A DNA stretch of 64,000 nucleotides from Coprinellus micaceus (Eukaryota > Basidiomycota > Agaricomycetes > Agaricales > Psathyrellaceae). The notes below the pieces were generated by a model. It was given only the letters and a program-made list of their open reading frames with translations. It was not told the origin of the DNA and made no database searches. The DNA lies in contig OX596343.1 of assembly GCA_951394405.1 (NCBI GenBank), forward strand, positions 1,674,001 to 1,738,000, written 5' to 3'. The position numbers and the translations under genes are program-made. Positions within the stretch are counted from its first letter, which is position 1; every line of letters begins with the position of its first letter. Of the stretch, positions 40,801 to 64,000 are shown piece by piece.

Positions 40801-41847
40801 CAGAACGCCGGCCCATAGAACTCCTTCACTTCCTCCCCCTCATCTGGGATCGACTCGAGCGCCGCAATCACCAACCGATCCACCTCCGACTCATACGGGA
40901 ACACATACTCCGCTTTCTTCCTCCTCGGCTCCCTCTTCCTCACCGCCGCCGTCTCCTCCGACTTCAGGTGTAGTACCAATTCCGAATGGTCCGACCAAGT
41001 CCCTCTCCCCTCTCTGACCTCGAGCGTAACCGCATCTTCCAGAGCTCTGTCGTTCCCCACAACATAATCCACGACCGCCTCCCCGATCCCTACGTGATGG
41101 GAGGTCATTCTCCCACTCCCACTCCCAAAACGCTCCAGTCCGTTGAAGATACGATAGCCTTCCTCCTTGCACAGTCTCACCAGTGCCCGCCCCCGAACAG
41201 ACGAGGTCCCATCCTCTGATATTCGCTTCTCGGTGGGATGGGTGCTGATTGACGCTGTCCTCGCGTTCAGATCCCCGACCAGTAGAACCCGACGTGTCTC
41301 GCCCCCCAGTGCGGTGAGCACTTCCTCAACATGGTTGTATGGGCTCCTGTCATCTCAGTCACTATGGAACGACCCCCTTGAAGGCCTATTAATTTAGTGT
41401 TCCAATGGGGCCTTAAGGGGGTCGTTCCATAGTGACTGAGATGCTCCTGTCCGCAAACCCTTCCCAGCGTTCCCGCCCCCGTTCTCGACCCTCAGGTACC
41501 ACATACGCTGCCACCAGCACTATCGAACTCGACTCGAGCACCAGCACATCCGCCGACCCCAGCTCCTTCACTGCCTTCAGCCCCAGTCCCTCCCTCGCCA
41601 TGACCACGACCCCACCCCACTGTGGTTCTCCTTCCCGTCTGTATTCCCGCTCCACTGACCAAATATCGTACCCTCCAATCTTCACCATCCTTATCTGATC
41701 CTTTTCGACCCTCGTCTCCTGAAAAATATTAATCTCATACTGCTTCAATTCATCCCGAAAGTCAGAGCAAGCCGTCTTCAGCAGGAAACCACCTTTCACA
41801 TTCCAGAGTCGTATCGCTACAGTACTACTCGCGTTGTCGACATCCAT
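37824..41847 (-). pseudogene. LINE ORF2 (endonuclease, RNase H, reverse transcriptase), broken by a MITE
   Basis: The polyprotein starts at the ATG at 41847 and ends at 37824, about 1310 residues if the insertion is ignored. The endonuclease/exonuclease/phosphatase domain shows IFQETR, VGDLNART and WSDHSELVLHL. An RNase H domain follows (VYVDGSCLGNG, NNRAEVYAVL, INSDSEYVI, HNDAADALAKEG; Asp/Glu/Asp/Asp set complete). Next is the reverse transcriptase (SYRTIGLLS, YAAFVDLSNAFPSTDQD, catalytic ADD in EQADDVVLLS). The C-terminal zinc knuckle is CRLCGGAVESPEHVWLEC. A 91-bp element at 41352-41442 plus its duplicated target (100 nt in total) splits the endonuclease domain and shifts the frame, so this copy cannot make full ORF2. 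Everything else is open, so the copy is young. RNase H between endonuclease and RT is an unusual order. Confidence 0.93.
41352..41442. mobile_element. 91-bp MITE with 9-bp target-site duplication
   Basis: Perfect inverted ends of 28 bases (start ATCTCAGTCACTATGGAACG; the right end is its exact complement) around a core of about 35 bases. Both sides carry GCTCCTGTC (41343-41351 and 41443-41451), a 9-bp target duplication as made by Mutator-like transposases. The insertion lies in the endonuclease domain of LINE ORF2. Confidence 0.95.
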
Positions 41848-41891
41848 TGGCAGCTCCTGCGTATCGACGCGGGGATCTCGGCTTGCTCCTC

Positions 41892-43097
41892 TCAGTTTCC
41901 CTGCCTGACGACAGTCGCACCTGGGGTGATGGGGAGGACAGGGAACCGATAGTCATTCCATGCCCTAACCAATGCCTCCGCCGCCTCGGGGGGGTTGACC
42001 GCCGCAACCACGAAGTTCGGAGTCATCCCGTCCATACGAACTGGACCCACTGACTTGATCATCTCGCCTCCACCTGGGACGGAGAGCAGGTGATCTCTGA
42101 AGGCGTTGAACGGCAGGCGGCCCCGAAACTCCAGCGGCCCCACCCTTACGTCGACTGGTCCCCTACCCCTCTGTTGTCCTCCATGCTGGAGGAAAGACGA
42201 AGGCATAGCTGAGGCGGACGTGGGGTGATGACCTCCCTGATATCCATTCGAGGGTCCATACCCATTGGAGGAGGAGAGAGGGAACGACACCGAGGGGGGA
42301 GGGGAGGGATGGGAGGGCCGAAGCTGGTCGAAGTCGTCGTCGATCCGTTGCCTCTTCCCGAGCTGCTCATACTGGCGCTGCTGTATCTGCGACGCATCTT
42401 CCGCCTTGGCGAGCCGCGCCTGCATCTCCGCCATGAGTCCCTGCATGTACCGGGACTCCTTGACCTCCTTCTCCAGCCTATCGACTCGGTCCAGGGCCCT
42501 GGTGACAGACGTGGTGGACGACGCAAGGAGCGGGTTGAGCTGGCCGATCGTTGCCTGGAGGGCGTTGTTCTGGACCTCAAGGGCGCTGATGCGTTTCTGC
42601 TGCGCGCCTCTCTCCTCCTTGGCCATCTTCAGTGCTTCGAGCAAGCGCCTGTTGTAGTCCTCGAGGGCCGTGTCCTTCTCCTTGAGATCCACACATTTCC
42701 TGGCCAGCGCAGCTACGTCGTCGGCGAGAGACTGAGTCGGACAGGCGTGTTTGGCCCTGACCGGGGACTTCTTTGCCGCAACCGGTCCCTGCAACCCCCA
42801 CTCCCCGTCCTGCGCACCATCCTGGGACGCTGGGATAGCCTCCATATCGACCTCGAAAGCTTCAGAGCCCACAGTCACCTGCGCCTTCGCTGTCTTTTTC
42901 CCCGCCTTGGCGGGCTTGACGGCCCTGATGGCAGTCTTCTTGACTACCTTCGTCGCCTTCGGGAGTTCCTTGGGTGCAGGCGGGGTTTCCACACCGGCTT
43001 CTGGAGTCGTGACTGTGGTCGACCTGGTGAGACGGCGTTCTCCAGGCAGCTCTTCTCCCAAGGGTAGGATGAGCGCATCTAACGGGTCTTGCTCCAC
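41892..43097 (-). CDS. LINE ORF1 (gag-like, coiled-coil protein)
   Basis: 401 residues. The N-terminal third is rich in Lys/Ala/Thr (KATKVVKKTAIRAVKPAKAG), suitable for nucleic-acid binding. Residues about 125-250 form a long coiled coil (LKEKDTALEDYNRRLLEALK ... VQNNALQATIGQLN), expected to drive trimerisation. A Ser/Pro/Gly-rich linker is followed by an RRM-like C-terminal segment (VDVRVGPLEFRGRLPFNAFR ... NFVVAAVNPPEAAEALVRAW). This arrangement matches ORF1 proteins of L1/Tad-like LINEs. The ORF is intact and sits just upstream of ORF2. Confidence 0.88.
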   Translation of the reverse strand: MEQDPLDALILPLGEELPGERRLTRSTTVTTPEAGVETPPAPKELPKATKVVKKTAIRAVKPAKAGKKTAKAQVTVGSEAFEVDMEAIPASQDGAQDGEWGLQGPVAAKKSPVRAKHACPTQSLADDVAALARKCVDLKEKDTALEDYNRRLLEALKMAKEERGAQQKRISALEVQNNALQATIGQLNPLLASSTTSVTRALDRVDRLEKEVKESRYMQGLMAEMQARLAKAEDASQIQQRQYEQLGKRQRIDDDFDQLRPSHPSPPPSVSFPLSSSNGYGPSNGYQGGHHPTSASAMPSSFLQHGGQQRGRGPVDVRVGPLEFRGRLPFNAFRDHLLSVPGGGEMIKSVGPVRMDGMTPNFVVAAVNPPEAAEALVRAWNDYRFPVLPITPGATVVRQGN

Positions 43098-43560
43098 CTC
43101 GACTCCTCCGATCGGTTCAGTCAGCTACAGACGGTCGCATGAGTTCTTCGCCTGTACCCAACCAACACTCTTGACGCACCTGTGAGAGATCCGCCTCGTC
43201 CCCCTCCACATATTCCAGCCCTCCCTCAGGTTCGTCCGCCGCAGCCGCGCGGTCTGCGTTGGCCTGTGCGTTCCTCAGAATCTCGTCGAACGCCATGGGG
43301 TCCTGTGTACCCGTTTCTGCCTGGTGGGGTGGTGGTGGTACGTCGAAGGAGTCTCAGGCAAAAACTTATCGATCGTCCGCCCTCTTGTATCCCACCTCAA
43401 CCGTACTTGTGATCCGCACCCAGCTCCACCCCATCTGTTCCGCCTCCCCCACGGCGAGGAGGGCCCGTCCAACCCCCTGACCTTCTATCGACATCGACAG
43501 TTCCCTGACGCTCCGGGAATCTGCTGCGAGGCGGGCGCGCCCCACTGTCGTTGTAGTTTA

Positions 43561-48835: not shown

Positions 48836-51450
48836 CACCTAGGTCACCCAGCTGAGCTGGGTCGCCAGCTGGGCTGGGCTGAGTGCGGGCTCAGCTGTAG
48901 GACGCCGGCTGAGCTGTAAATCAGTGAGCTGAGCGGCTAGCTGAGCCAGGTGAGATGTTGCTCAGCTTATGCAAGGTGGGCTCAGCTCACATCCCAGCTG
49001 AGCCCGTCCAGCTGAGTCCAGCTGAGTCTAGCTGAGCAGCCTTAGCTGGGCCGACAATAACCATGCCCAACATTTGTAAAATATTTTGCGAAAGGGCTGG
49101 CTCAGCCCATCTCAGCTCAGCTGGCTCAGCCACAGGGCTGAGCCTCTGTCACACATCTGTCACGCTTTGTGTATGTTTGTATATGTTTGTCACATCCATG
49201 TCACACCTCGCAAAATTGGATAATGACATCATATCAAATAAAAATAATTATGATGTCATGGTGATAAGATCTATCAATGAGGTCATGATCGTCAGGCACA
49301 GGATGATGTCACACTCATTTAGATAAGAAACAGGCTGATTGCGATGAGCCTGATTGCACTCAGTTCCTGGCCGATAAGGATGGTTTTGGTACCGTTCGAA
49401 AGCCCTTATTCGGGGCTTTTCAATGCATGTAACGTTTCCAGAACCCATTCAATACAGCTGTCAAAAATAAGCATTTTCGTCGATTTCTCATGATTTGGGT
49501 GCTTGCGAGTGCCATTCCATCTCAATGCCTGCTCTCTGATGCCCGGTTATTGTATAAACGGTGTGAGGGTGGTGCAGAGTCTCCGTAATACCACTTATAC
49601 CACTTTTACCTATCCCCTGTCTTCATAAAACAACCAAAAACTGTAAAAACCTCGTGATCTGCAAGTGCGAAGGTCATTTCATGCTGCCCTGACACTCCAG
49701 ATGGCCAAATAAATATTTGAAAGTGTTATATGTGTTCCGTACTACCTCTTACAGGATCTCCCCCATCTTAAATGCACACCAGTCCTGCTGAATTCAGCTC
49801 AAAGTGCCAAAAGTGATGAGCAACAGCTATATTCATGCCCATTCAGTATGATGGAGACCGTGGGACAGTTGGCCACCATACACATAAAAACCAGGCCTTA
49901 AAATGATGCAGAATACAAAAGACCGGAAAGAAAACGGAGCACACATGCCCAAGATGTAGCAGGAACACTGCCAGCTTGCAGCAGTTGTGCTGAACAACTT
50001 TGCACTTCAGTTACAACTGGTACCAAATGGACAGTTTGGGCTATTCCATAGCAATGGGTGGTCTGTTTGCTTAGGTGTCTTTTGACATTTGTATTCGTGG
50101 ATGACCTTCTCCCAATTCCATAGACCAAAATGTGTGTGAACTATTGCGGGTGCCTCAAACAAGTGATACATCGGTTTTCGCACAGCTTATTTCAGAGCTG
50201 GTTGCAATGCATGGGGCTTGTCTGGTACTCAAAGCTGCAGTCCATACCATATGAGGTCACTATCCCAATACCTTCTAAGTGAGCTGAGAGTGTGTGTTTA
50301 TAAGCCCATGCCATGGAACAAGCATGCATCTACCATGCACACCACCATATGAGGTCAGGCAAATTTGATGAGGGGATCTTGTGTGATTTATTGGTGATAG
50401 CATATGGCTGGGTGATTACACTGCATGTGTCTGCCACCCCCCAATGTCAAGATCTGTTCGCTAATAACCCAAATACATCTGAACCCCAGCGTGTAAGGGA
50501 CCGTTGCATGTTGCATGGTGGTACTGGCCCTCACATAACACCCTATGCGGTCAAGCAAAATCAGGGGATGTGATCTTGTGTGATTTATGGGTGGTAGTAG
50601 GAAGCTGGATGACCACATTACATGTGTTCACTTGCCTCTACCACTGAAACTTGTCTTTTAATTATCCAAATACTCCTGAAACTGCAGTAGTCCTGGCCCT
50701 TCCTGTCCACCCAGTTTGTGCTGGAAAGGTTTTGCTAATCACATTCTCCACCAAACTAAGCCAAATGGTGTCCTTGCAAATCCTAGTATTGAGAAAACCA
50801 CTATTTGACATGTGTCAGTACCTCATTTGATTACCTACTATACAAATCCAGATAGAGGCCGCCAAGCGCTTTCTAACAATACCAAAATCACCCTTATCGG
50901 ACAAGAATTGACCATGATATCACACATGCGAATATCAATAGTCTTATCTAAATGAGCATCATTTTGGATCTATGACATCATATCTATTTGTGTATGTATG
51001 CCATCATCATTTGTTTGTTTGTCATGTTTGTCTTTGTTTGTTGTGTCACATATTGGTCACATCTGTCACCATGTGACCATCACACCTCAGCTGAGCTGAG
51101 CCAGCTTCAGCTCAGCCGCATAGACCAGCTCAGCTGGGTTATGTGAGTGTGAGGCTCAGCCCGATGACACTGGGCTGAGCTAGCTATGCGTTGGCTGAGG
51201 TCAGCTGAGGGCAGCTGAGCACGCACCCCCAGCTCAGCCGCACAAGCTGAGTCCACTCCAGCTCAGCTGAACATTGCTCAGCTGGGCTCAGCGAGCAGCT
51301 CAGCTCACTGATTTACAGCTCAGCCAGCGTCCTACAGCTGAGCCCGCACTCAGCCCAGCCCAGCTGGCGACCCAGCTGGCCGGCTCTAAGCCGGGCAGCT
51401 GAGGCCAGCTGAGTCCGGCTTAGAGCCAGCTCAGCTGGGTGACCTAGGTG
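48836..51450. mobile_element. Long inverted-repeat element with AGCTGAGC-rich ends
   Basis: 2615 bp bounded by perfect 25-bp inverted ends (CACCTAGGTCACCCAGCTGA... at the left, its complement at the right). The similarity continues inward for over 100 bp of sequence built from AGCTGAGC/GGCTCAGC motifs. A second inner pair of diverged inverted blocks (around 49240-49430 and 50860-50990) contains CTCATTTAGATAAG. The 1.4-kb core is AT-rich, with no frame above 90 codons. No clear target duplication. The element at 61.97 kb and beyond has the same inner blocks and a similar core (GACCGGAAAGAAAACGGA vs AACCGGAAGGAAAACGGA), so both belong to one non-autonomous superfamily. The right end touches the minus-strand gene at 51451-51911. 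Confidence 0.87.
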
Positions 51451-51911
51451 CGAACGGCATCGTTGGGTGAACCAATACTGAACGTTCTGTACAACACCGG
51501 AGGACGGCCAGCAAGTCAGCAAGTTTAGTGATGGGGGGAATGCCTTACCTTGACTACGCTTTTTCGCTGGGCGCTGGTCAACGCCTTCTTCTCCAAGATT
51601 TGGGCGATGAATTCGTCAGCGATGGAGCGGGTGAGGTGACCCTTCTGCTTCTTGGTGGAAGCGATGTACTCTTCCTTTCGCTCCTTCATGACTTCCAACT
51701 GCTTCTTGGTGAAGCGGTCATCCAGCAGCTTTTGCTCCTGAAGCAGGCTGTCGTCGACGACATCGGCAAGGGCCTCGTCGATGGCGGCGAGAGACACGTC
51801 CTTGCTCACCGCCTCGCTCGATTCAATAAGAGCCTTCGGCTCCACATTCTCGTCGAGGGGGCGAGCAGACATCTTCGATTCGGGGGAAGGCGTAGATCTT
51901 GGAGAAGGCAT
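51451..51911 (-). CDS. Small charged helical protein of the KDZ cluster, 3' end cut by the adjacent element
   Basis: Exon 1 (51549-51911, or from the Met at 51872) encodes up to 121 residues: a Ser/Pro-rich start, then a charged helical stretch (LLDDRFTKKQLEVMKERKEE, HLTRSIADEFIAQILEKKAL). A GTAAGG donor at 51548 and an acceptor ending at 51487 (after CTGAC) give a 62-nt intron. Exon 2 reads NVQYWFTQRCRS and then runs directly into the terminal repeat of the element ending at 51450. The natural 3' end is therefore missing or replaced. Function unknown; it may be an accessory factor of the transposon. Confidence 0.5.
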
Positions 51912-52183
51912 GGAGGAACGGGGAAGGGAGAGCGAATATAAATTAAATGATGAATAGGCCGGCGGCTTAAAGAGGTGGCGTCTACTTTGCCGATCCTTGC
52001 TCCCTCAGGCTGGCCTCGGTAAAGTATCCGAAACTCCATACATTCCCCTCCCACCGCCATATCTGTGCCCACTCGCCAATGCCGATTCCAAGAGGAGCGA
52101 CCGTGTTCGCCGATCGCCATGTTGAAGCCTAGCTCGACGTCGACGGCCTTACATCACGGTCCAGGGGGCGTAAGGGTGCCAAG

Positions 52184-55100
52184 ATGAGGGAGATAACTCC
52201 AGAGGGTAGCCCTACGAAGTCCTACAAGAAGCGCAAGAAGAACCCCCCCGATACGCCCCTCCCAATATTCACAGCTCTTGACCCCGCACACGAAGGGGAG
52301 CCAACCGGTGATATCGCTCCTGGGTCCCACGACGGGCGGGGGAATGAGTATGGAGACCCAGAGACTGGCTTTTGCTCGGATACGGAGTCGGTGTATCGCG
52401 AAGGCATCACAGAGCCGCATACAGGGAAAAAGAGCGAAGGCAAGGTAAGCTGCGGTATCTCTTTCTCCTGGTAATGATAAACTAACATTGGGTGCTTGTC
52501 GCAGAATACGCACGAATACATGGAGAGCTGGGTTAAGAATCACTGCGAGAGCTACCTCGCCGCCATCCTTGAAAGTGAAGGACAGTGCGCGTCTGCATGT
52601 GAGCTCTGTGGTGTTGGAAGTGTGGAGATGAGATGCCTGGATTGCATCTGCGTTCCTCGTCTATGCCGCCGTTGCTGTCGAACATCGCACAGAATGGACC
52701 CACTCCATCGCGTCGAGTCATGGATCAAGAACCGCTGGCAACCGTCTTGGCTATGGCATGTCGGATCCGTCGTCTGTCTTGGACACGGCGCGTCGCCGTG
52801 CCCTTATTATTCCAAGTCTCGTCCGGAGGTGGAGGAGATGGTTACCCGACTGGCGTACCTCGATACGAAGGATCCGAAGAGCTTTTCCGACGATCCTAGC
52901 TATGGCGCCAGGCCTGAAAGTGGATCATTGGGGGGTGGCCTCATGATCACGATCGTCCATACCAATGGCTTCCACAGACTCCCCCTCTTCCCCTGCTTCT
53001 GTGCAAACGCACAGCCCTTACACCTCCAGCTCCTGAAGGGTGGACTGTACCCCGCGACATCCGACGACCCCCAAACGGTGTTCACGCTTCGATTACTGAA
53101 ACATTTTCACCTAAGTAAGGTCGACTCCCACCTCTCCGTCGAGCACTATTGTGCACTCCTTCGCCGTCTAACCAACTACGTATTCCCAAGCCACGCAATG
53201 GTAAGTCTTACCTTATCGTAGCGCCTCCCTCATCTTGCTGAAGTCGTATCAGGAACGACGGAGGGAACTGACTCGCGTCTGGCAACAGTACGACCACCTC
53301 ACCGATCTGAAGCGCAACGGTTTCGGCATTATCAGCATCCGCCTTCAAACCCCTGGCAAAGGTTCGTTGGCCCTGTTCTGTGCAGTGTGCCCGCAACCTG
53401 GTGTAAACCTCCCCGAAAACTGGACAGAGCTTGATGATTCGTAAGGGACAGTTCACATTCCTGCCCTGGTCCGCGAAGCTGACTGTACCCTCAGATGGAG
53501 GTTCTGGAGGTACCTCACAACGGACGGGAACTTTGTTCTGGACCATCTCGAGGTCCTAGGCCCGGACGTGGCGGTTTGGCTTTCGAATGGAGCTCGGTTC
53601 TTCGCAGAGCGCAACAGATTCGAAGATTTCTTAATTTCCGCCGGCGCCCACGAGAAGAAGGAGGTCTGTTTTGGTTTGAGTCGTCCCTGGACCGAGCTGG
53701 GAACCTGACTACGAGAGCATACAGGATCTGACGTGCAACCAACTTCGTGCCGTAGCCGATAAATACAAGCTCAAGAGAGGCTACGACTCCACAGGCATTG
53801 TGGCATCCGCCTGCGCAAGGCACGGGTGCTACGCCCCGGCCTCCGTTTGTGACATGCAAAGGGGAGAGAAGTGGGTCCATGTCGGTCGAGAAAGAAACAG
53901 TGCTAACCCATATGAGCCCAGGCAAGCGAACAGAGATTACTCCGTCGCACAAGCCTACGAAACGACTAGAGCGAAAGATTTGTTGGGGTTCCGCCTCGCG
54001 TACGACGTCAACTGCCAATTCTGGGTGCACTTCCGGAAACGATTCGAAAACGAGTTCCTCAAGGGCGTCATTTCGCCCGAGGCCACCGTGCTATTTTTGA
54101 TCGGCCTGTTCCACGTTCACGGCCACAAAGAGGAATGTCTTCCTAGGTTCGCACCTACGTTCGCTCCTGGCGCCGGTATGGCCGCAGCAGAGATCCTGGA
54201 GTCACTCTGGGCTGGGATCATTGGTGCGGCGGGAATGACGAGAGCTATGATGGCCGCGCATCGAGTCGCAGTCTTGGACGCCATTATGCAAGACAGCAAC
54301 TGGAAAAAGCTTCAAGGCATGGGTGAGTCCAAATACCCTCCGTAAGATACGTTGTAGACCCCCGCGTTTCACAGTGGTCTGGCTGAACAAGCAGCTTCGA
54401 CGAGCAAGAAAGGGTCTCCTGGCTGCCGAGAAAGACTACCTGAGGTTGAATAAAACACGTAGGTGTACGCCCGCTCTGAGAAAAAAATGGGAAAAGGAGA
54501 TGGAGGAGGCCCACGAGGAACGTCTGCGTGGGAACGTCTCTGCTATGGATATCTACAAAACAGTTGCCTTTGAAGGTGAGCCAATGGCCTGATGCGAAAG
54601 TGGAACTCTTGCAAACCGAAATACAGCTGATGGCCAACAAGAAGTCCAACTTCGCTTGATGTCGCAGGAGAGGACACAGAAGACCCGGCGCGGAATTGCT
54701 CGATGGATGGCTTCTGGGATTCGTATCCAGGAATTGCAGTGAGCTCCGTGCCCCGCTCTTTAAGAGGCCTCCTTGACACCTTACAGGCTTGAGCTGAGAG
54801 CGTACATCAAGGCTACGCGTTCCGACGAAAAGCGCGGCGCCGTCGGGATCGAAACGGAGAGGAAACGGTCAGCCCTGTTAACGAAGGTGGAAGAGTTCTT
54901 CGAAACAGGGGGAGAGCTGTTCGACGGGCTTGAACTAGAAAAACTCGAGGTAGGTGAGGCCGTTGAGCGTAATCTCTGCGTCTGTGAAGATGCGTTGAAT
55001 TACTGCAACTGCGAGAGTGAGTTGGCGGAACCTGAGGAAGTCTCGGGAACGGGAGGGAAGAGGAGTACCAAATCGAAGAAGGTCGAAGTGCCGGTGGAAC

Positions 55101-56123
55101 GGATGAAGATACCACTCCCCTCCACGGCTGTCTGCCGCCCTGGAAAGTGGGAGTCTCAGGTGTGCAAAGAGGAGGACCTTCGCGTAGCACAGGCGCACGA
55201 GGCCCTCGAGGCGCTGCGGGGGCACATCGCCCACAAGTCTTACCTCTACCACACAAACAAGAAACTGGCCAAGGGTAAACGCGGAAGGAAGACCAAATAT
55301 GGGGAGATTAACTCGGTGGAGATGACAATGCGCCTCGAAGCCAAGCGCTACGACCTCGCACGGTGGGCGCTTATCCGCCTTGGGGTGATCGACAAGCACC
55401 CTGAACTGGAAGAGCTCACATCGAAGGACACAAAGGCGATCATATCGGTCTGGGACCCCAATGCGGCAGGACGTCGTGACGCGGAACTCCCTTGGATTTG
55501 GAAGATACGTCATTCCGGGGGGACAAAGGAAGCAAAGGACTATGTCAAGGACCGTGAGTCGAATTCTGTAACCCTCGAGATGCAGCCGCTGATAGAGCCA
55601 AGTGTACCGCGTTAATTGGATCCGAGCCCGCTCTCGCCGTGATCGTTGGGAGGAGGAGAAGAAGCTCTTAGAATCAGAGATGGAATGGTTCGTGCGATAC
55701 TGCAAAAGTCGGCGGGAAACGGCTTTAAATTGGGCAGGGCAAGGCGTAACCGAAGGTCACTCCGCCTATGCCTTTAGGCAGGCGGACATGTGGGGCCGAC
55801 TCGGACGTCAAGCCAAGGGAGAGTTCAAGAAGAACTCCGTCGTTATCGATGTAATGCTTGGGGACGAAGCCGAGGACAACGTCGACGAGCCTAATCAGCT
55901 CCCCCCCGATATAGAGAGTGGAGAGGAGTCCAACGCCGAGGATGAGAAGCAGGGCATCACGGAGGAGGCAGAGGACCCCTGGGAGGAAGAACCAGAAGCA
56001 GATGGCCGAGAGGAGTTAAGCGATGAGGAGGACGAGGAGGAGGAAGCGATGGGGAGGGACGGGACGGAGGTGCGGGTCGAGGAGGGCCCTTCGCTAACCC
56101 AAATCAAGCCAGAATGTAGTTAG
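52184..56123 (+). CDS. KDZ (Kyakuja-Dileera-Zisupton) transposase with CxC2 cysteine cluster
   Basis: Nine exons: 52184-52444, 52505-53200, 53253-53440, 53495-53663, 53725-54322, 54375-54575, 54627-54738, 54787-55553, 55603-56123; 1170 residues, no stop or frameshift. Residues 115-146 hold the CxC2-type cluster (CASACELC ... MRCLDCICVPRLCRRCC), followed by HRMDPLHRVESW and CLGHG, as in the KDZ-associated zinc region. The KDZ core follows: DGNFVLDH and VWLSNGARFF, CDMQRGE (480-486), YDVNCQ (531-536), FHVHGHKEEC (567-576) and AAAEILESLW, where family members usually have an Asp/Gly-Glu-x-x-Glu pattern. The last 120 residues are acidic. It should act in the nucleus as the DNA-cutting enzyme of the element. 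An intact copy suggests recent activity. Its 3' end faces that of the Ulp1 gene, 58 bp away. Confidence 0.95.
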
Positions 56124-56181
56124 TTCAATAAAACAGCGCGTCTCCTTTCCGACACGTTGAATTGATTGTAGAAGATTGTAT

Positions 56182-58891
56182 TTATACTTCGACTACTTCT
56201 ATGCCGGAATCCGAGGATATGTCAATGACCTCGACCTCCGTGTTTCCCCCCGCCCTTAGGCCAGTCACAGGTCCCACTTTGACCTCCAGATCGGCAATCT
56301 CTAGGAAATCCACGTCCGCCCCTTTCACTCCTCTCTGGTGGGTCACAAGTCCGACCTCTACGTCTGAACCCACTGTAGCAACATCGGGCATTCTCATCCA
56401 CTCCTCAGAGAGGGCTTCTATCACGGACCTTAGACGCTGGCGCATCGTTGAGACCGTCCACGTCTGCCACAGCGTCTCTCTCTCGCCCGGAGTGGTGGCG
56501 TCCTGCACGGGGCTTAAGAATGGGCTGGTCGTGCGTCGAAACGGAATACGTACGAAGCTCCTGCGGATGAGATTCCTGGCATCGGGTATAAAAGTCTCGG
56601 CAAAATGGATGGCGTACAATCCACAGTCACAGAAGTTGGGTTGCCTTGGAACCTTATTGATTGCTTTGTGAGTGGGGCAACGTCCCGCTTAGATGTGGGG
56701 CTAACCTCGACATGCCTTGACATGATCTCGACGGTGGAGGTCACTGCCTTCTTGTGTGCAGCCTCCAGTGAAAGGAAGCCCGACAGCTGTTTGCATGCAT
56801 GGTCATGGGTGTTGCCAAGCGAGTCGAAGATGAAGATATATGTGCTAATTAAGGAACAGAGGAGTCAGTATGGGGAGTAACGCTTGGAGATGTAGGGTCT
56901 CGAGCTCACTGGTTGGGTAAATAAGTCGGCTTCCTTGGCTTGGGGACTAAACGGCGAGGCTGGAGAACATGCTCGGGCTCGAAGATAATCGCCAGATACC
57001 AATGCAAACTGTATGAAGATGGATGAGTGGAGATCACATAGATTGTGCGGGCATCCGACACACTCTTCATTGATTGGCACGATGATGTATTTCTTGCGAA
57101 AGAGATCGAACCTAGAGGTCCACTTGCTTACACTCCTGAATCCCGACTGCAGGCTGCCGTATAATTTGGCCACATTCAGACGGATGGTCGTGCGGGTGTG
57201 GGAAGGGCACATACTCGGATTTGTTCAACTTCTTATAGAAGAAGGAGCTGCAGACATGCACCTGTGATGCAATCTCCGGAGACGCATCATGGAGTCGTTT
57301 CATCCAGTGCCTGTCCCCGAGTGAAAACATGAACGATAGTGAATAGAATGACGTGACCTACTTCAGGCCGAATTCTATGAGTGTATCATTCAGATACTCC
57401 CCCGGCTGGAGGCGCACAAGGTCTGCGTTCGTGATATTGACTCTCCCAATACCATCGTATGGAAAGCATAAAACCCTAAGTTGAAATATTTCACGGTCAG
57501 CAGAGCACGAAGCGGTATGGATGGGGAGAGGTGACGTACGTCCCGTCATCAGCGGGAGGAGGAGTCGCCTTCCTTGCCACCTCCGCCTCCACGAAGGATC
57601 TATCACCGAGGGGCGAATGGGCTCTCGAAGCCGGTAAACTGAGGGAGGTGGACAGGTCTGCACGCAAGATAGAGGGGTGGGGTTCGTCGAGGAAATGGAT
57701 GAACGAGTAGCCGTCGTCTGGCCTGCCGCCAGGTGGTGTGGAACTGCGCGAACCCGATTCAGCCGACTTGGGCCCAGAAATATCGTTTGCGAACACTAAA
57801 GAGGCAGGACTACAGAGGGCAGAGTCAGGTCCTGTGGCGTTGGCATATTGACTATCGTCTGGGTCCCCCGATCCGCCTAAAGGGACGGCGCGACCAATCA
57901 AGTCTTGCGAATAATTGGCGTCATGCGCCTCGTGCGAGTGATCGACCTTGCGCGGATCCGCCTCGTGCGAATGATCGCGGTCGTGTGCCACACCGGCCTC
58001 GTGCGAATGATTGCCTTCACGCGCCTTGTGTGAGCGTTTATGCGCCACACCCGCCTCGTGCGCGTGATTAGAACGGTGGATAGGCGCTAAAATGCACTTC
58101 GAGGGGATCGATGGTGAAAACCACTTGGGAGTACTCGACACAAATGTAACGGCGGAAGGAGTGCCGGCTTGAAGGGTGTGAGCCGGGGGAGAGGGAAGCT
58201 TGGGGGGTGCCTGGACCGTTGAGACAGCATCGAGAGTCGAGGACGCCGAGGACGAAGACTCCGGAGTAGCCGCAGTGGCCAAGGAGAGGGACGAGAAGGA
58301 GGCTCTGGGGTGGCACGACGGTGCGACCTCAGGCGTCGCGTACCCTCGTGGTATCTCCGCATTTCCGGAAAGCGTAGATATTTCCGAAGGTCTGAAGCGT
58401 ACCTGCGGCATACGCCCCTTTAGCGCTGTGAGTGGACTTCCTGAGAGTGGGCTTACCGAAGGGCGTCTGCGTTTCACGAACCTCCTGAGATCCAGTTCTG
58501 GAGGTCGTGGAATGTCTTCGGGCCTCGAGGTTCCAGTGAACCCGTTTCCAGCGCCCTCTTCCACCGGAGGCAGATCTCCTACCGTGGTGGGTAATGGAGG
58601 GATAGACCACGGTTCGATGGGTGCTCCCATCGTCCCCGCACCACACTGCCATTCAGGGCCGGTGTCTCTCTCAAGCTCCAATTGCGGCCAAACCGCTGGG
58701 AGCTTCGCCCTCTTCGCGGGGGGAAGAAGAGGGATATCCCACTGTTCAATGGGACTATCTCTCGATGCCTTCGTGGAGGAGCCCCACTCCGAGTGGCCGA
58801 CCTCTAGCAGCTTAAGCTGTGGCCACATCGGGCGCTTAGTACGAGCTGGTTTTGGAGTGGAGGCGGTGATGGCTGAAATTCCATGCCGCAT
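56182..58891 (-). CDS. Ulp1-type SUMO protease (C48) of the KDZ cluster
   Basis: Seven exons: 57540-58891, 57362-57475, 57215-57310, 57064-57153, 56910-57008, 56706-56844, 56182-56652; 786 residues, intact. Residues 1-450 are a low-complexity Ser/Pro-rich region with duplicated Trp-containing segments (MWPQLKLLE, VWPQLELE) and a His-rich repeat tract at about 274-330 (HSHEA units). The protease domain starts at 452 (YDGIGRVNITNADLVRL, then GEYLNDTLIEFGLKHW) and keeps the full catalytic set: His553 (LHWYLAIIF), Asp591 (FIFDSLGN), Gln634 and Cys640 (RQPNFCDCGLYAIHF). Such enzymes mature or remove SUMO. Within a KDZ element the target could be sumoylated host silencing factors or the transposase itself; this is inference. 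Confidence 0.94.
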
Positions 58892-58993
58892 TGTGATGTA
58901 AGCCCCTATAGGGCAGGGTTCAGCAATTTCAATTCGTCATCGCGATCGGACGTTCTCCTTTTCCTTCATCTACCTCTGCGACCCTTAACGACG

Positions 58994-59765
58994 ATGGATC
59001 CGCAGACAGCTCGGCGCATGAGGGAGTTGCCTCCCTCAGCCTTTCAGGCCCTCGTTGACTACGCCGCCGCCCGTTGTTGGGCGATTGCTGAAACATACGG
59101 CCGAACCATTGGAAAACTCCCAGGAGGAGTGCTGGTGTCATTCGTAGACGCCTTTGAGAAGGAGTTGGTGCGTGAAATCATATCCGCGCAGTTTAAACGA
59201 TTCACACCTTATTCTGTAGTTTTCTACGACTTATTTAATAGGTCTCGGCCGCCTTTATCATCTTGGTTCTATCGACCCTCCTGTGGTCGTGCAAAAACTT
59301 GCGAATATCCACTCATTTGGCCAGATACGAGACGCAGCCTCAATATCTGAGTTCGTCGCAGGGGAGCGTGGTAGCGCAAATCCTCCGGCCCTACGTCATG
59401 AAGGCGACTGGTGGACGCAGTACGAAGGACCGCTTCGCCAGATCGTCGCCCACCCAATCGCCACACCGGCAAAAGTATTCCAGTGGTGGCAGGAGTACCA
59501 GCGGGAGGGTCGCCCAGAAACACACCAGTCTGGACCCTCGCCTCCCGACTCACTTCGCCTCCTGTCCCTATCCCGCGACGACCTTCATGTGACCTTCCGG
59601 ATGTCAGAACAGCTGATGCAGGAAGCGGCCATGGAAGCGATCTCCACACTCAAATATCTGAAGGACGTTGACGAAAGCGTCGCGACTCTGGATAGAATCC
59701 TCGAAGCCCTCGACCTGGTTGAATCCTCAGAGGACATGAGAATCCCTGGGGCAATGCGCCGTTGA
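58994..59765 (+). CDS. Unknown protein of the KDZ cluster (gene 1)
   Basis: Two exons, 58994-59171 and 59242-59765, give 233 residues; the donor is GTGAAA and the acceptor AATAG, which keeps the frame (EKELVR-LGRLYHLGS). No known domain is recognised. The protein looks helical, with a Trp-rich patch (GDWWTQYE, VFQWWQEYQREG) and an amphipathic C-terminal third (LMQEAAMEAISTLKYLKDV). It is divergent from the Ulp1 gene, with only about 100 bp between the two ATGs, so the two probably share a promoter region. A role in transposition is likely only by position. Confidence 0.6.
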
Positions 59766-60041
59766 CTCAGAAAGGTATGAGGATCCCCCCGTACCTGTAA
59801 TAAGGCGTGCTAAAGTTCGCACCACTATTAGGTGCCGCCTTGCTTTCTTTGTCTGGTCCGAGTTGGGCTACCATTCGGCGCTTACTGTATACTTTCTCCG
59901 AATGATTGTACATATATCCGCGTAAAATTTACAATATACAATCGAGATACGATCACTCCTTCCCCTCGACCAACTCGTGCCTTATAACACATCCCGTCGA
60001 TCCCTATCCCGACAGTGTTCGAGTTAAAGTGCCTTTTAAAA
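59766..60041. other. Spacer between two unknown genes
   Basis: AT-richer spacer (around 59880-59950), presumably a 3' UTR and promoter. Confidence 0.45.
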
Positions 60042-60672
60042 ATGGCAATCCGTAACCTCCTGAAGATAGAGTGGCTCGCATTAAACTGCTACGTCTATTG
60101 GCGACGTCGCGCGTTCCTCGAGTTTGTGGGAACCGAGGGTCGCCAGAGCGGGTTTAATCGCAGGTACCTTAACCTGTTCCTATTGGACTTGGTATGGGTA
60201 AATCTATTTCCACGCAGCGGGTTGTCTAAACGAGTGGCAACAGGAGGCTTCCATCGTCCTACAGGGCTACCAGGCCTTGAGTGGAGTCGGCCGTCCGTTT
60301 GCAGGGCTGTCGCTTGCCTTGGAGGGCCTCGGCCGAAACGACACAGAACTGTGGAAAGCGTTGAGATCTGGGGAGCTGTTGGAAGACCTCCCCTTCGCGG
60401 TTTTACCCTTCAGCTTCACAGCGAAGCAGTGGTGGGCTGAAGGCCTGGCAGCTCCGTCAGCCGACTCTATCTTCGACGACTTTCTGGAAGCCTGGTATCA
60501 TCTGCTCAACAATCCAGTGCTCCCCGACACCCTTACCCAGTGCAAGTCTCTCAACGATGTGCTTAAGGAGGCATCCAGATATCTGGACAACGAAACCGCC
60601 CAGCTGAAGGAGATATTGAAACACTACGAGACGGCCGTAGCAAAAGCAGGAGAATGGTTGGATCAGCTCTAG
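60042..60672 (+). CDS. Unknown protein of the KDZ cluster (gene 2), splicing unresolved
   Basis: The second part, about 60218-60672, is one good frame of 151 codons: EWQQEASIVLQGYQALSGVG, then LEDLPFAVLPFSFTAKQWW, and a helical end with heptads (LKEILKHYETAVAKAGEWLD). A plausible first part from the ATG at 60042 (MAIRNLLKIEWLALNCYVYW) is in another frame. The best intron between them (GTACCT at 60164 to CAG at 60217, 54 nt) does not restore the frame, so either another junction is used or there is a one-base frameshift. It ends 26 bp from the end of the TET/JBP gene. Family unknown; the helical, Trp-containing character is similar to gene 1. Confidence 0.45.
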
Positions 60673-60697
60673 ATAAAACACAAAACTATAACATTTA

Positions 60698-61887
60698 CTA
60701 TTCCCGACCCCAAATATCCTTGTGGTCCACATTGGGTCTCCTCAAACCCAAATTCCTCTCAAGGGTCGCGGCCAAGGGCGGGAGTAGGTCCTGAAATCCT
60801 TCATCCAAAATGCCACGTCCGACAGCGGGTCGGAAGTAGCTCGCCAAGCAAACCCGCTCCCCATTCGTCTTGCTTGCGCCATGCTCGAAGAGGTACCCTG
60901 GCATGACGAACGCAGTGCGGGGATTGTATACAAAGCGGCCTCCAAGCAAAGGGACTTCCAACCGACCTCCACGGTAAGACCCAAATGTAGCAAGGATATC
61001 CAGGCAGTGAATACCGCCTTTGTTGTCCCTGTGAAACTCCGACTCGCGGTTGGCGATGGCGGCAAATACCTCAAAGGGGCTTGTCCAGTGCTCAAAAAGC
61101 TCTTTGGTGAGTTCGGGATCGTTCGAGTGCTTCCCGGGGTTGTCGTAGAGGGACTGGAAGACCCGGATTTGCTGGTTGTAGTACTCTGGGTGAACCACCG
61201 CAAATAAAGCACCAATGAGGGCGTTGGTAACTCTGAGCGAGGAGAGAAGGGAGCGACCCTCGGGCGACCTCAGCAAGACGGAGGGAGAAGGTAAGGAGTT
61301 GTGACGCTGGGCAAAGTGAGAGCCGTCAGCATCCACCAAGGTATCAACGACACTCTACGCACCCCATATCCCTGGTTGTACCAGCAAATACTGAAATTCC
61401 CGTTGCCTGGCTGGACTAGGCACCTCTCCGGATTCGCGAAGAGCTCACGATTCTGCCTCCACTGCTCCCCCCCAACTTCCAAAGCCTTTGCTCCACCATT
61501 TCCGAGGGAGCGCATGACATGATCCTTAGTAGGGGCGAACCAAAAAGTGAATCTTGGTGTCCTCCAGCAAAGGGACAGTACTCACAGATCGTGCGGAAGA
61601 GAACGCCCCAGGGATGTACCACGCGATTACGCGATCATCCCGGTCGATGTAGACTGTGGGCTCGTCGACGAGGGGGAGGGTGCCGTCGGGATTGCGGGGA
61701 TAGGCGCTTGCGAACATTTCCCGTAGCAGCTGGTCTCTGGGCTTCGAACCCCCTGACTTCAGCGCATCGGAAACCTCGGAAAGACTGAAGTCGAGCTTGA
61801 CTGCAACTGGGGTGAAACATGTTGCGCGGAGATCGCAAAAAGAAACGGACCTCTATTATTCCACGCCTGCACGATCTGGGACGACAT
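60698..61887 (-). CDS. TET/JBP-like 2OG-Fe(II) dioxygenase of the KDZ cluster
   Basis: Four exons: 61851-61887, 61586-61806, 61363-61524, 60698-61306; 342 residues from the first Met. The frame is open further upstream (IPLEIRGELET) to about 61950, where the next element starts, so the natural N terminus may be missing. Landmarks of the fungal TET/JBP fold: VYIDRDDRVIAWYIPG (76-91), HRD with His232 and Asp234, GSYRGGRLEVPLLGGRFVYN, FEHGA with His282, and GERVCLASYF with Arg291. These supply both Fe(II)-binding His, the Asp, and the 2-oxoglutarate-binding Arg. Characterised relatives oxidise 5-methylcytosine (TET) or thymine (JBP). Linkage to KDZ transposase matches the known fungal pattern. 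A role in relieving methylation-based silencing of the element is inference. Confidence 0.93.
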
Positions 61888-62312
61888 GGTCTCTAGCTCC
61901 CCTCGGATCTCCAGGGGAATATTCCCTATGTTGTCCGTGCTAGGATCGGAAATTTTACACCTCAGTCACATGGATGTGGGTACCTCTAAGGTATACACTT
62001 TGTACCGGAGTGGGTGCCTTAGAAGGTGACCTCCCCTGGATTGATCCAGGCTTGGACCTGTGGATCCTGGACTGGATCCTGGATGGCCTGGTCCATTTTG
62101 GGTCCAGTCCAGTCCATTGGTTGGCTGGATTCTTGTCTGGACAGAACCATGCTAGACTGGATTAGTGTGACATGTCACACTCTGGACTTCTGTCCAGCCA
62201 AAAGTCCAGACCAGGGGCTGGATCTATCCACCCCTTTTTGGACCAGGTCCAGCTTTAAATAGCCAGGGGGTGTCTGACCTAATGTCATCAGTGACATCAT
62301 GGTTGTCAGGCA

Positions 62313-62535
62313 CAGGTACCAGATTTGATGGCAGATAACCTTGCCATCAAATGACATCATAGATCTCAGGAACAGGTACCAGATTTGATGGGACATAATC
62401 TGTCCATCAAATGACATCACAGATCTCAGGAACAGATCCCAGATTTGATGGCAGATAGCCTTGCCATCAAATGATGTCACAGATCTCAGGAACAGGTACC
62501 AGATTTGATGGACAGCTTATGTCCATCAAATGACA
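62313..62535. repeat. 60-bp tandem repeat, each unit a potential hairpin
   Basis: Copies start at 62313, 62373, 62433 and 62493 (CAGGTACCAGATTTGATGG). Each contains ATTTGATGG ... CCATCAAAT, able to fold on itself, and CAGATCTCAGGAA. Confidence 0.95.
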
Positions 62536-62646
62536 TCACTTATGTCATGACATCACACTCATTTAGATAAGGGCAAGCAGAACTCGTGACTCTCTATCTC
62601 TGTCAGTTCTTATCTGATAAGGAAGCTCTGGGCATCATTAGAAAGC
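62477..62646. repeat. Left arm of long inverted repeat (pairs with 63831-64000)
   Basis: Read against the complement of 63831-64000 the 170 bases are nearly identical; differences are confined to the innermost few positions. The last window base (64000) pairs with 62477, so the repeat extends outward past the window. Confidence 0.95.
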
Positions 62647-64000
62647 CCTAATTTGACACTATCCATCTCTGTGAGCGCCTTGCCAACCCCATCACTTCCC
62701 ACACCACAATAGCACAAAGTATTGAAATATCTTCAGATGGCCAGTTTGCAAGCTCAGCTTTTGCCCTTAATATACAATTTTTGGCCCAATTTTTTTGTGG
62801 AACTTAAAGACACCAGCAAGAACTACCAAATCAATAGCATCACACCTCTCCAAATCCTCTTAATCAATCCCAAAAGCCCAAATTGTTCATTACTTACACA
62901 ATTGTTGTGGTAGCATCAAAATTACCAGCAATACAGGATGCTTCTGGAAGATATGGGGCATATAAATGATGGTTAGAGTGCTTATACACTATACCATGGT
63001 GTGACTTTCCTCCACACTTTAAAATTGGAAGCACAACACAAAGAAAGAAGCACAATTGTGGTGATCATAACAGTATGCATGCCAAATCATCATGAAGGCA
63101 GCTGTGGGAAAGTTGCCACTTGTGGGAAATAGAATCAGAATCAAAAATAGAGCAGAAAACAAAAAACCGGAAGGAAAACGGATCAGGGGTTGTAGAGATA
63201 TGGAAGGAGCACCACATTTTGACTGACTTTCAGTAGTTGCTCATAGCATTTTTAGAATGTCTGGTTGCAAAACAACAGTTTCTTCTATATCTTTTGAGTG
63301 TGTTATCTGTTTCCCATGGGGTCTTTTGTATTCTCCTCAGAATCAAATTTCATTTCTATATTGGTATTTTATATGGTGTGGGAACATTCACAGCTGCCAT
63401 AAATAGCCAAACAATAAAAACTCGCCTGTCTTGTTTGGGACAAGTGCATGCTATGCTGCTTGCAGATTGTGGTGTTATTACTTCATTGTCCCACTCAATT
63501 CACTCTATATAACTTCCAGTATAGCTCATAAAACATGTTTTCTCTTGTCTACACAGCACAGCTCAGATATCATACAACTTGTGTGTTACATTCAATTGTG
63601 GCATACTATGGCTGGACAATGGAAGAATGGGTCATAGGGACCCCAGGATTAGTGTATATAATGTGTCACCTTATTCTCTGGCCTGAAACCCACCCCATAT
63701 GGCTGTTAATCTCTGGTAAATTACACAACACATGACAGAAAATGCAGATACAAAGCTAAAACACATTCTGGCATGGGTGGGAACAGTGAATTCCCACACC
63801 ATGAACAAATTTGGAAAGCCCTAAAGGAATGCTTTCTAATGGTACCCAGAGCTTCCTTATCAGATAAGAACTGACAGAGATAGAGAGTCACGAGTTCTGC
63901 TTGCCCTTATCTAAATGAGTGTGATGTCATGACATAAGTGATGTCATTTGATGGACATAAGCTGTCCATCAAATCTGGTACCTGTTCCTGAGATCTGTGA

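Follow-up and report, generated by a model that had tools for sequence, protein, structure and literature searches.

The window, a stretch of 64,000 nucleotides on contig C10 of Coprinellus micaceus, probably holds a decaying transposon of the TET-carrying Kyakuja (KDZ) kind, whose lineage captured and kept a host Ulp2-type protease; the TET enzyme and the protease would aid the expression and movement of the element. Established are the gene block, its recurrence at an unrelated site, the derivation of the protease from the host, the conservation of catalytic residues and the constraint on the protein. The features, in window positions, are as follows.

48838..51448, no strand: unrelated repeat 'A', ends GGTGACCTAGG, CpG O/E ~0.36; borders the break, outside the element
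51452..61957, no strand: remaining body of the Kyakuja element, 99.65% identity to C8:1825561-1836071
51452..51486, - strand: start of HMG exon 2, cut at the break
51549..51911, - strand: exon 1 of the HMG-box gene (N-terminus, 121 codons), the sole complete exon in the window copy
52184..56123, + strand: KDZ (Kyakuja) transposase, 10 exons, 1134 aa, with CxC2 cluster
56182..58891, - strand: captured Ulp2-type SUMO protease, 7 exons, 780 aa, H547/D585/Q628/C634
58994..59765, + strand: small gene S59, 2 exons (58994-59171, 59242-59765), 233 aa
60042..60672, + strand: small gene S60, 2 exons (60042-60191, 60244-60672), 192 aa
60698..61887, - strand: TET/JBP dioxygenase, 4 exons, 343 aa, HRD233...H283...R292
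61958..64000, no strand: unrelated hAT-like repeat 'B', 8-bp duplication AAATTTTA, CpG O/E ~0.07

The gene block is mobile, because a near-identical copy on C8 (10,511 bp aligned at 99.65% identity) sits between different flanks, unlike those of C10 on the left and on the right. The C8 copy carries the transposase, the protease and TET; a sequence-only reading had suggested looking for other copies of the six-gene block in this genome. Likewise, the copies C8b and C13 lie at unrelated sites. It is hardly credible that host genes stand by chance beside a KDZ transposase. Among the best 120 of 330 matches, those nearest to the protease do look like host genes. Nevertheless, the recurrence of the entire block at C8 refutes a chance neighbourhood for this genome, and the closest host homologue of the protease is a separate gene on C7. 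It is very improbable that the similarity between C10 and C8 stems from segmental duplication or from a duplicate in the assembly instead of transposition. A segmental duplication does account for another KDZ pair (C2:4.54 and 5.14 Mb), whose flanks are 99.99-100% identical and which was of no use for locating the termini. However, the flanks of C10 and C8 differ on both sides, and their right break coincides with the end of the C8b/C13 family.

The same reading had described a composite KDZ transposon with an intact transposase. An intact composite element is not supported for the window copy, which has lost the left terminus and the greater part of the HMG gene. The proposed left edge (51451/51452) is a break adjoining another repeat, not an element terminus. 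The proposed right edge marks repeat 'B', an insertion that lies 70 bp upstream of the start codon of TET and extends beyond the window up to C10:1738519. The Kyakuja element picks up again at ~C10:1738520, and its final 419 bp lie to the right of the insertion. It ends in ...CACTG, with the last base at C10:1738937, within a Copia-like reading frame (read by eye). A right end in TG, where the copies diverge, is seen in two families (C8/C10 and C8b/C13); in a third family it comes from the alignment only. The left terminus was not found for C8 or C8b. A 7-bp target-site duplication with a CA start was found for neither of them, and none was placed for C10. At C13, AACTTTG with a CA start was considered as a Kyakuja left end and rejected: at C1:5273451 and C5:3186398 the same sequence continues across the would-be duplication, so this candidate is another repeat bordering the break of the C13 copy.

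The transposase matches the KDZ core PF18758 (110.6 bits, Pfam cut-off 26.6) and the CxC2 zinc cluster PF18803 (71.9 bits, cut-off 27). Its spliced frame is open over 1134 aa, and 9/9 introns are GT-AG. The CxC2 cluster and the absence of stops agree with the earlier description, but the exons are ten and not nine. The TG right end and the CcTet-like TET, rather than a transposase tree, point to Kyakuja instead of Zisupton or Dileera.

The three small genes reported as unknown proved unequal. The one at 51.5 kb is the stump of the HMG-box gene. In the C8 copy this gene runs on, to ~1,000 aa by open frames (no full splice model), with an HMG_box_2 match of 24.3 bits (cut-off 22.4). For S59 and S60 the Pfam result concerns the second exon: no domain was found in that of S59, and nothing above the cut-off in that of S60. 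Homologues of S59 occur at other KDZ loci; those of S60 occur there and in Coprinellus aureogranulatus. A predicted structure of S60 was set aside (pLDDT 42.8, from an alignment of four sequences).

The dioxygenase matches PF12851 (Tet_JBP) with 64.6 bits. This is the right family; PF20515, the one suggested before, has zero matches in this genome and likewise in the controls. Two solved relatives were found, CcTet (7vpn, 1e-33) and 8jkk (9e-34). The HxD...H motif and the 2-oxoglutarate arginine align with the CcTet-like chain 8jkk, and the complete HRD...H...R signature already noticed is present (HRD at 233, His283, Arg292). Its placement among AG-type TETs, suggested by the CcTet match, is putative. 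Activity of CcTet on 5mC has been reported (PMC12730594).

The protease matches PF02902 at residues 477-647 (107.5 bits). Its frame is open over 780 aa, with six introns, all GT-AG. His547, Asp585, Gln628 and Cys634 are kept, as first described, and the cleavage of SUMO conjugates is predicted from the sequence. Close to the C-terminus lies VEVIDISSD, which we take to be a SIM-like motif. Among solved structures, yeast Ulp2 comes out on top (E 1.4e-23), ahead of yeast Ulp1. In the tree (47/122 rows used, with the distant host homologue on C2 left out), the element protease groups with the host C7 gene and two Coprinellus proteins with support of 100/97. The branch order inside this four-member clade is weak (92/40), and the element branch is long (1.02 vs 0.06-0.31 for its three sisters). 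Compared with the host Ulp2/SENP6-7-like proteases of Psathyrellaceae, the catalytic domain is 64% identical to host C7 and 60% identical to Coprinellus P0001. However, the long N-terminus is another sequence, the catalytic loop between blocks is shorter (by eye), and the gene is transposon-borne. By its place in the tree it is a captured host gene, kin of the host's Ulp2. Single-copy host genes at this locus, the case that would have spoken against a mobile Ulp1 and TET, are not what we see; the nearest host Ulp homologue is on C7. Against the host gene, over 219 codons, pN is 0.234 and pS 0.755, values that the late capture of a diverged host paralogue would yield equally. Amino-acid change far below silent change suggests that the protease is under constraint.

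Across the KDZ loci of this genome the common layout is HMG(-) KDZ(+) S59 S60 TET(-). TET lies within 10 kb of a KDZ match at 25 of the 30 TET loci, convergent with KDZ in 25/25. HMG is near 23 of the 65 KDZ hit clusters and divergent in all 23. The protease is present at 2/20 TET-bearing KDZ hit clusters, the window and C8. At the other 18, an exon-wise search with the protease of the window, which a much diverged gene could escape, found no Ulp gene; the PF02902 profile search gave the same places. So TET and Ulp1 do travel with the KDZ transposase, as had been proposed, given the repeated block at C8 and the TET-KDZ pairing. Their joint absence from every other KDZ copy, which would have counted against the proposal, is not observed, since C8 has both, although it is nearly so, the search having found no Ulp gene at 18/20 clusters. 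The two protease-bearing clusters are near-identical and therefore represent one evolutionary event. The gap between KDZ and TET is 6.53 kb in the window and C8, and 3.35-3.62 kb at 14 of the 18 other TET clusters. From the transposase stop to S59 there are ~0.1 kb in C8b versus 2.87 kb in the window, with the protease inside.

Nearly all substitutions between C10 and C8 (34/38) are CpG transitions; the CpG footprint further includes 4/4 substitutions. The coding comparisons leave out HMG and S59, for which the exon limits were off, and, in a separate set, KDZ exon 9, which was out of frame. The CpG comparisons leave out repeat A against L028 and, for repeat B, the window and L009 against L010-L013, where register or orientation differ. 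The simplest reading of this divergence is that cytosine methylation left its trace in spite of TET. On that reading both copies were methylated after spreading, and TET gave them no lasting protection; the footprint suggests that these copies were without protection.

As a separate lead only, CpG content differs between 12 TET-bearing KDZ loci (one of them at 0.41) and 8 without TET (Mann-Whitney p 0.012), two sets that differ in sub-families and ages, the first including loci with the nearest TET 13-19 kb off and one locus without a KDZ domain match.

We propose the following course. TET would oxidise 5-methylcytosine on the element DNA, and the protease would remove SUMO chains from host factors. 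SUMO-dependent silencing proteins are our first guess as targets, and transposition or repair factors the second. Host CpG methylation would in the end silence and mutate every new copy, and the two enzymes would let the element be expressed and move before that happens. The earlier view that the three main genes all look functional is borne out for open frames and catalytic residues only. A fuller version is tentative: a two-enzyme counter-silencing kit, formed by a 5mC oxidase and a host-derived SUMO-chain protease, and convergent with the KIU-Vandal elements of plants. At the source copy the kit would act in a brief burst; the daughters would then be CpG-methylated and decay nearly exclusively by CpG transitions, and host-like CpG content would persist only through steady renewal.

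The protease could instead be a passenger: the element would have taken up a copy of a host gene that contributes nothing to its life cycle. Its confinement to one sub-lineage of two copies and its long branch fit this account, and captured genes usually decay or get lost (PMC13317346). Nevertheless, the full 780-aa frame with its six GT-AG introns and kept catalytic residues, together with a pN that is much smaller than pS in the comparison with the host gene, make a passenger unlikely. A role in the transposition reaction or in break repair, and not in silencing, is possible but doubtful. Ulp1 domains occur in Ginger1 transposases and Mutator elements, and the Ginger authors proposed such a role (PMC2836005). 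On the other hand, the protease here is a separate gene, and in plants the KIU Ulp1 domain sits on the anti-methylation protein (PMC13317346). The capture and retention of a useful protease by a TET-carrying Kyakuja lineage is the reading we prefer.

TET-carrying Kyakuja transposons are known from Agaricomycetes (Kojima 2025, PMC12730594). They have in common with the window element the KDZ transposase, a TET close to CcTet, a TG right end and many copies per genome (PMC12730594). Their termini are 5'-CA..TG-3' without inverted repeats, with a 7-bp target-site duplication (PMC12730594); the duplication and the CA left end are features located in those elements and not here (PMC12730594). The captured Ulp2-type protease sets the window element apart from them, and the main text of that report names no Ulp1, SUMO, protease or peptidase (PMC12730594). 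The literature searched, to which the founding KDZ paper did not belong, yielded no mention of a SUMO protease in TET-carrying Kyakuja. The KIU (Kaonashi) Vandal MULEs of plants are likewise DNA transposons, in which VANC, an anti-methylation protein, is paired with a Ulp1 domain (PMC13317346). However, they belong to another transposase superfamily, their anti-methylation protein is another one, and the Ulp1 domain sits on VANC instead of forming a separate protease gene (PMC13317346). Pfam scans found no MULE family in the proteins of the block, whose transposase is KDZ. The two systems are presumably of independent origin, and by analogy the plant elements are a convergent precedent. Ginger1 and Mutator are further DNA transposons with a Peptidase C48 domain, which in Ginger1 is fused to the transposase, and their description there does not mention TET (PMC2836005).

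The case is testable, for the genome holds many TET-bearing sister elements in which the searches found no protease. Because young copies diverge almost purely at CpG, they also let one read methylation on elements that carry TET. Should the protease prove important for the element, then transposons of plants and of fungi have each, on their own, combined a tool for DNA demethylation with a SUMO protease. SUMO would then look like a layer of transposon silencing common to both.

The window covers C10:1674001-1738000, and the block at window positions 51452-61957 contains six genes. The splice models are predictions from GT-AG sites and homologues.

Genes of the block, from left to right
Left end of block, minus strand: stump of an HMG-box gene, the remainder cut off
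Between HMG stump and protease, plus strand: KDZ transposase, 10 exons, 1134 aa (KDZ 110.6 bits, CxC2 71.9 bits)
Between transposase and S59, minus strand: Ulp-type protease, 7 exons, 780 aa (Peptidase_C48 107.5 bits)
Before the TET gene, plus strand: S59 (233 aa) and S60 (192 aa), both small and of unknown kind
Right end of block, minus strand: TET/JBP dioxygenase, 4 exons, 343 aa (Tet_JBP 64.6 bits)

In the domain search, the KDZ, CxC2, Peptidase_C48 and Tet_JBP scores exceed the curated cut-offs. The sequence-only reading had named a nine-exon KDZ transposase, a Ulp1-type protease, a TET/JBP gene and three unknown small genes. The three main genes are all present. The transposase has ten exons in our model, and one small gene is the HMG-box stump, leaving two.

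We searched the genome (50.3 Mb, 17 contigs) for other copies of the block, as that reading had proposed. Contig C8 carries one (C8:1825561-1836071), with 99.65% identity to window positions 51452-61961. The match picks up again past an inserted repeat, for 419 bp, up to C10:1738937 on the window's contig. Both copies end in ...CACTG, and the sequences beyond this shared right end are unlike; at C10, a Copia-like polyprotein frame adjoins it (read by eye, without domain search). A second KDZ family, the pair C8b and C13, shows 99.95% identity across 8,131 bp. Its related terminal region likewise closes in TG at the point where the two copies diverge. For a third family with a single locus (C8c), the TG end is deduced from alignment only. 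Kojima (2025, PMC12730594) describes 7-bp duplications and CA..TG ends for TET-bearing Kyakuja. Two loci on contig C2 (4.54 and 5.14 Mb, 597 kb apart) are 99.99-100% identical across the 12 kb compared, in a stretch that takes in a KDZ element and its two TET genes. This pair is a segmental or assembly duplication and was not counted as transposition.

Within this lineage, which is probably Kyakuja, the window holds a damaged copy. On the left it breaks off within the HMG gene, at 51452, next to an unrelated repeat (repeat A), and the missing remainder of the gene had no blastn match anywhere in window positions 1-51451. On the right, a hAT-like element (repeat B) has landed 70 bp upstream of the TET start and shows the 8-bp duplication AAATTTTA. 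So, of the intact composite transposon proposed earlier, the mobile block carrying transposase, TET and protease stands, and the intactness of this copy does not. The C8 copy retains a longer HMG gene, although its first frame has an early premature stop where the window copy stays open. The C13 copy is also broken within the HMG gene, adjoining another repeat. A left terminus was sought for the C8 and C8b copies and was not found. Elsewhere in the window, positions 37827-43124 hold long minus-strand frames resembling a non-LTR retrotransposon, with endonuclease, reverse transcriptase and RNase H-like stretches (by eye only).

Genome-wide, the exon-wise matches give 65 KDZ clusters (107 matches), 30 TET (31) and 24 HMG (34). 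The counts are minimum values, and a single element probably accounts for two of the clusters, on C3. Of the 30 TET loci, 25 have a KDZ match within 10 kb, all 25 convergent, against about 2.6% expected from coverage alone; the other five lie at 13-78 kb. Conversely, only 20 of the 65 KDZ clusters have a TET within 10 kb, and the majority are without one. An HMG match occurs within 10 kb of 23 of the 65 clusters, divergent in every case. The abstract of the founding KDZ paper (Iyer et al. 2014) reportedly mentions a divergent HMG domain in such elements. S59 has relatives at three other loci (39-40% identity) and weaker relatives at a further six (21-27%); S60 has relatives at four other loci. 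Between the window and C8b, pN is 0.34-0.48 in the TET, S59, S60 and HMG segments, in each case lower than pS (0.71-0.85, saturated or nearly so), so they look like constrained genes. Six KDZ loci (C2:4.54, C2:5.14, C4:4.18, C7:2.65, C13:1.58 and C1:4.59 Mb) each present two TET matches that point the same way, with a spacing of about 1.1-3.3 kb.

The protease is much rarer. The query matched both copies of the block (C10 and C8), one close homologue on C7 (the host's own Ulp2-type gene) and a distant one on C2. It is thus found in 2 of 20 TET-bearing KDZ clusters, although a much diverged relative could escape the search. KDZ and TET are separated by 6.53 kb in both of these copies, compared with 3.35-3.62 kb in 14 of the 18 others and 4.4-9.8 kb in the remaining four. 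Likewise, the transposase stop lies about 0.1 kb from S59 in C8b (by eye), and 2.87 kb in the window, with the protease.

Among solved relatives, yeast Ulp2 was the best (1.4e-23), then SENP7; yeast Ulp1 was far lower (4.5e-07). Near the C-terminus, VEVIDISSD presumably resembles a SUMO-interacting motif. None of the best 120 of 330 database relatives was nearer to the transposon protease than the C7 gene. The host's Ulp2 domain is 80% identical to its Coprinellus aureogranulatus counterpart, which places the host near Coprinellus. In a tree of 47 of the 122 available sequences, selected by us, the transposon protease groups with the C7 gene and two C. aureogranulatus proteins (100/97). The other named members of the enclosing clade (100/99) are Coprinopsis, Ephemerocybe and Candolleomyces. 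This placement makes the protease a Ulp2-type gene of host origin, with capture on the Coprinellus stem or later. Branching order within the inner clade is weak (92/40), and the transposon branch is long (1.02). Against the C7 gene, over 219 codons, pN is 0.234 and pS 0.755 (saturated). Its history would be either long carriage under constraint or capture of an already diverged host paralogue. P0005, a short second Ulp2-like protein of C. aureogranulatus (475 aa), groups with that species' long one (98/46); it could represent a further duplication or capture.

Between the C10 and C8 copies there are 38 substitutions. Of these, 36 are transitions, and 34 of them are CpG versus TpG or CpA, whereas 14.3% of bases lie in CpG (binomial p 1e-26). 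By our arithmetic, the CpG rate in this pair is about 50 times that of other sites. C8b and C13 show four differences, all CpG transitions. If CpG is the older state, C10 lost 20 and C8 lost 14. Protein-altering changes since the split (KDZ 5/7, Ulp 3/8, TET 3/4) look unconstrained, as expected for single copies. The near-pure CpG divergence of young KDZ copies is a strong sign that TET-bearing elements are subject to cytosine methylation. The element has a CpG observed/expected ratio of 0.95; window positions 1-48000 have 0.91, repeat A 0.36 and repeat B 0.07, the lowest among the stretches measured (8 CpG in 2.56 kb). Young copies of repeats A and B show a weaker CpG bias, with few CpG left there; any two of the three usable copies of repeat A differ at 4 positions, 2 of them in CpG. 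On a plain reading, new KDZ copies would begin with full CpG content and then be methylated and decay. This decay argues against any lasting protection from the TET of the element, and would be compatible with a brief period of TET action. CpG content is 0.66-0.90 at 8 KDZ loci without a nearby TET and mostly 0.86-1.04 at 12 with one (p 0.012, confounded by sub-family and age); one broken TET copy has 0.41.

The TET-bearing Kyakuja lineage is real and mobile, with a captured, constrained Ulp2-type protease aboard. The words Ulp1, SUMO, protease and peptidase are absent from the main text of PMC12730594. Our literature search, which did not cover the founding KDZ paper, returned no paper joining KDZ, Ulp1 and transposon, nor Kyakuja and SUMO; a broader search gave nothing relevant, judged on titles and abstracts, among the 10 of 66 records listed. 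Within the literature searched, such an Ulp2-type protease in a KDZ element is unreported. KDZ elements are reported to be mobile in Cryptococcus (PMC12810828), Ginger1 occurs with Ulp1 (PMC2836005), and plant KIU-Vandal elements carry a Ulp1 domain on VANC (PMC13317346). Counter-silencing by two enzymes, TET and the protease, is a plausible inference, and these plant elements offer a parallel.
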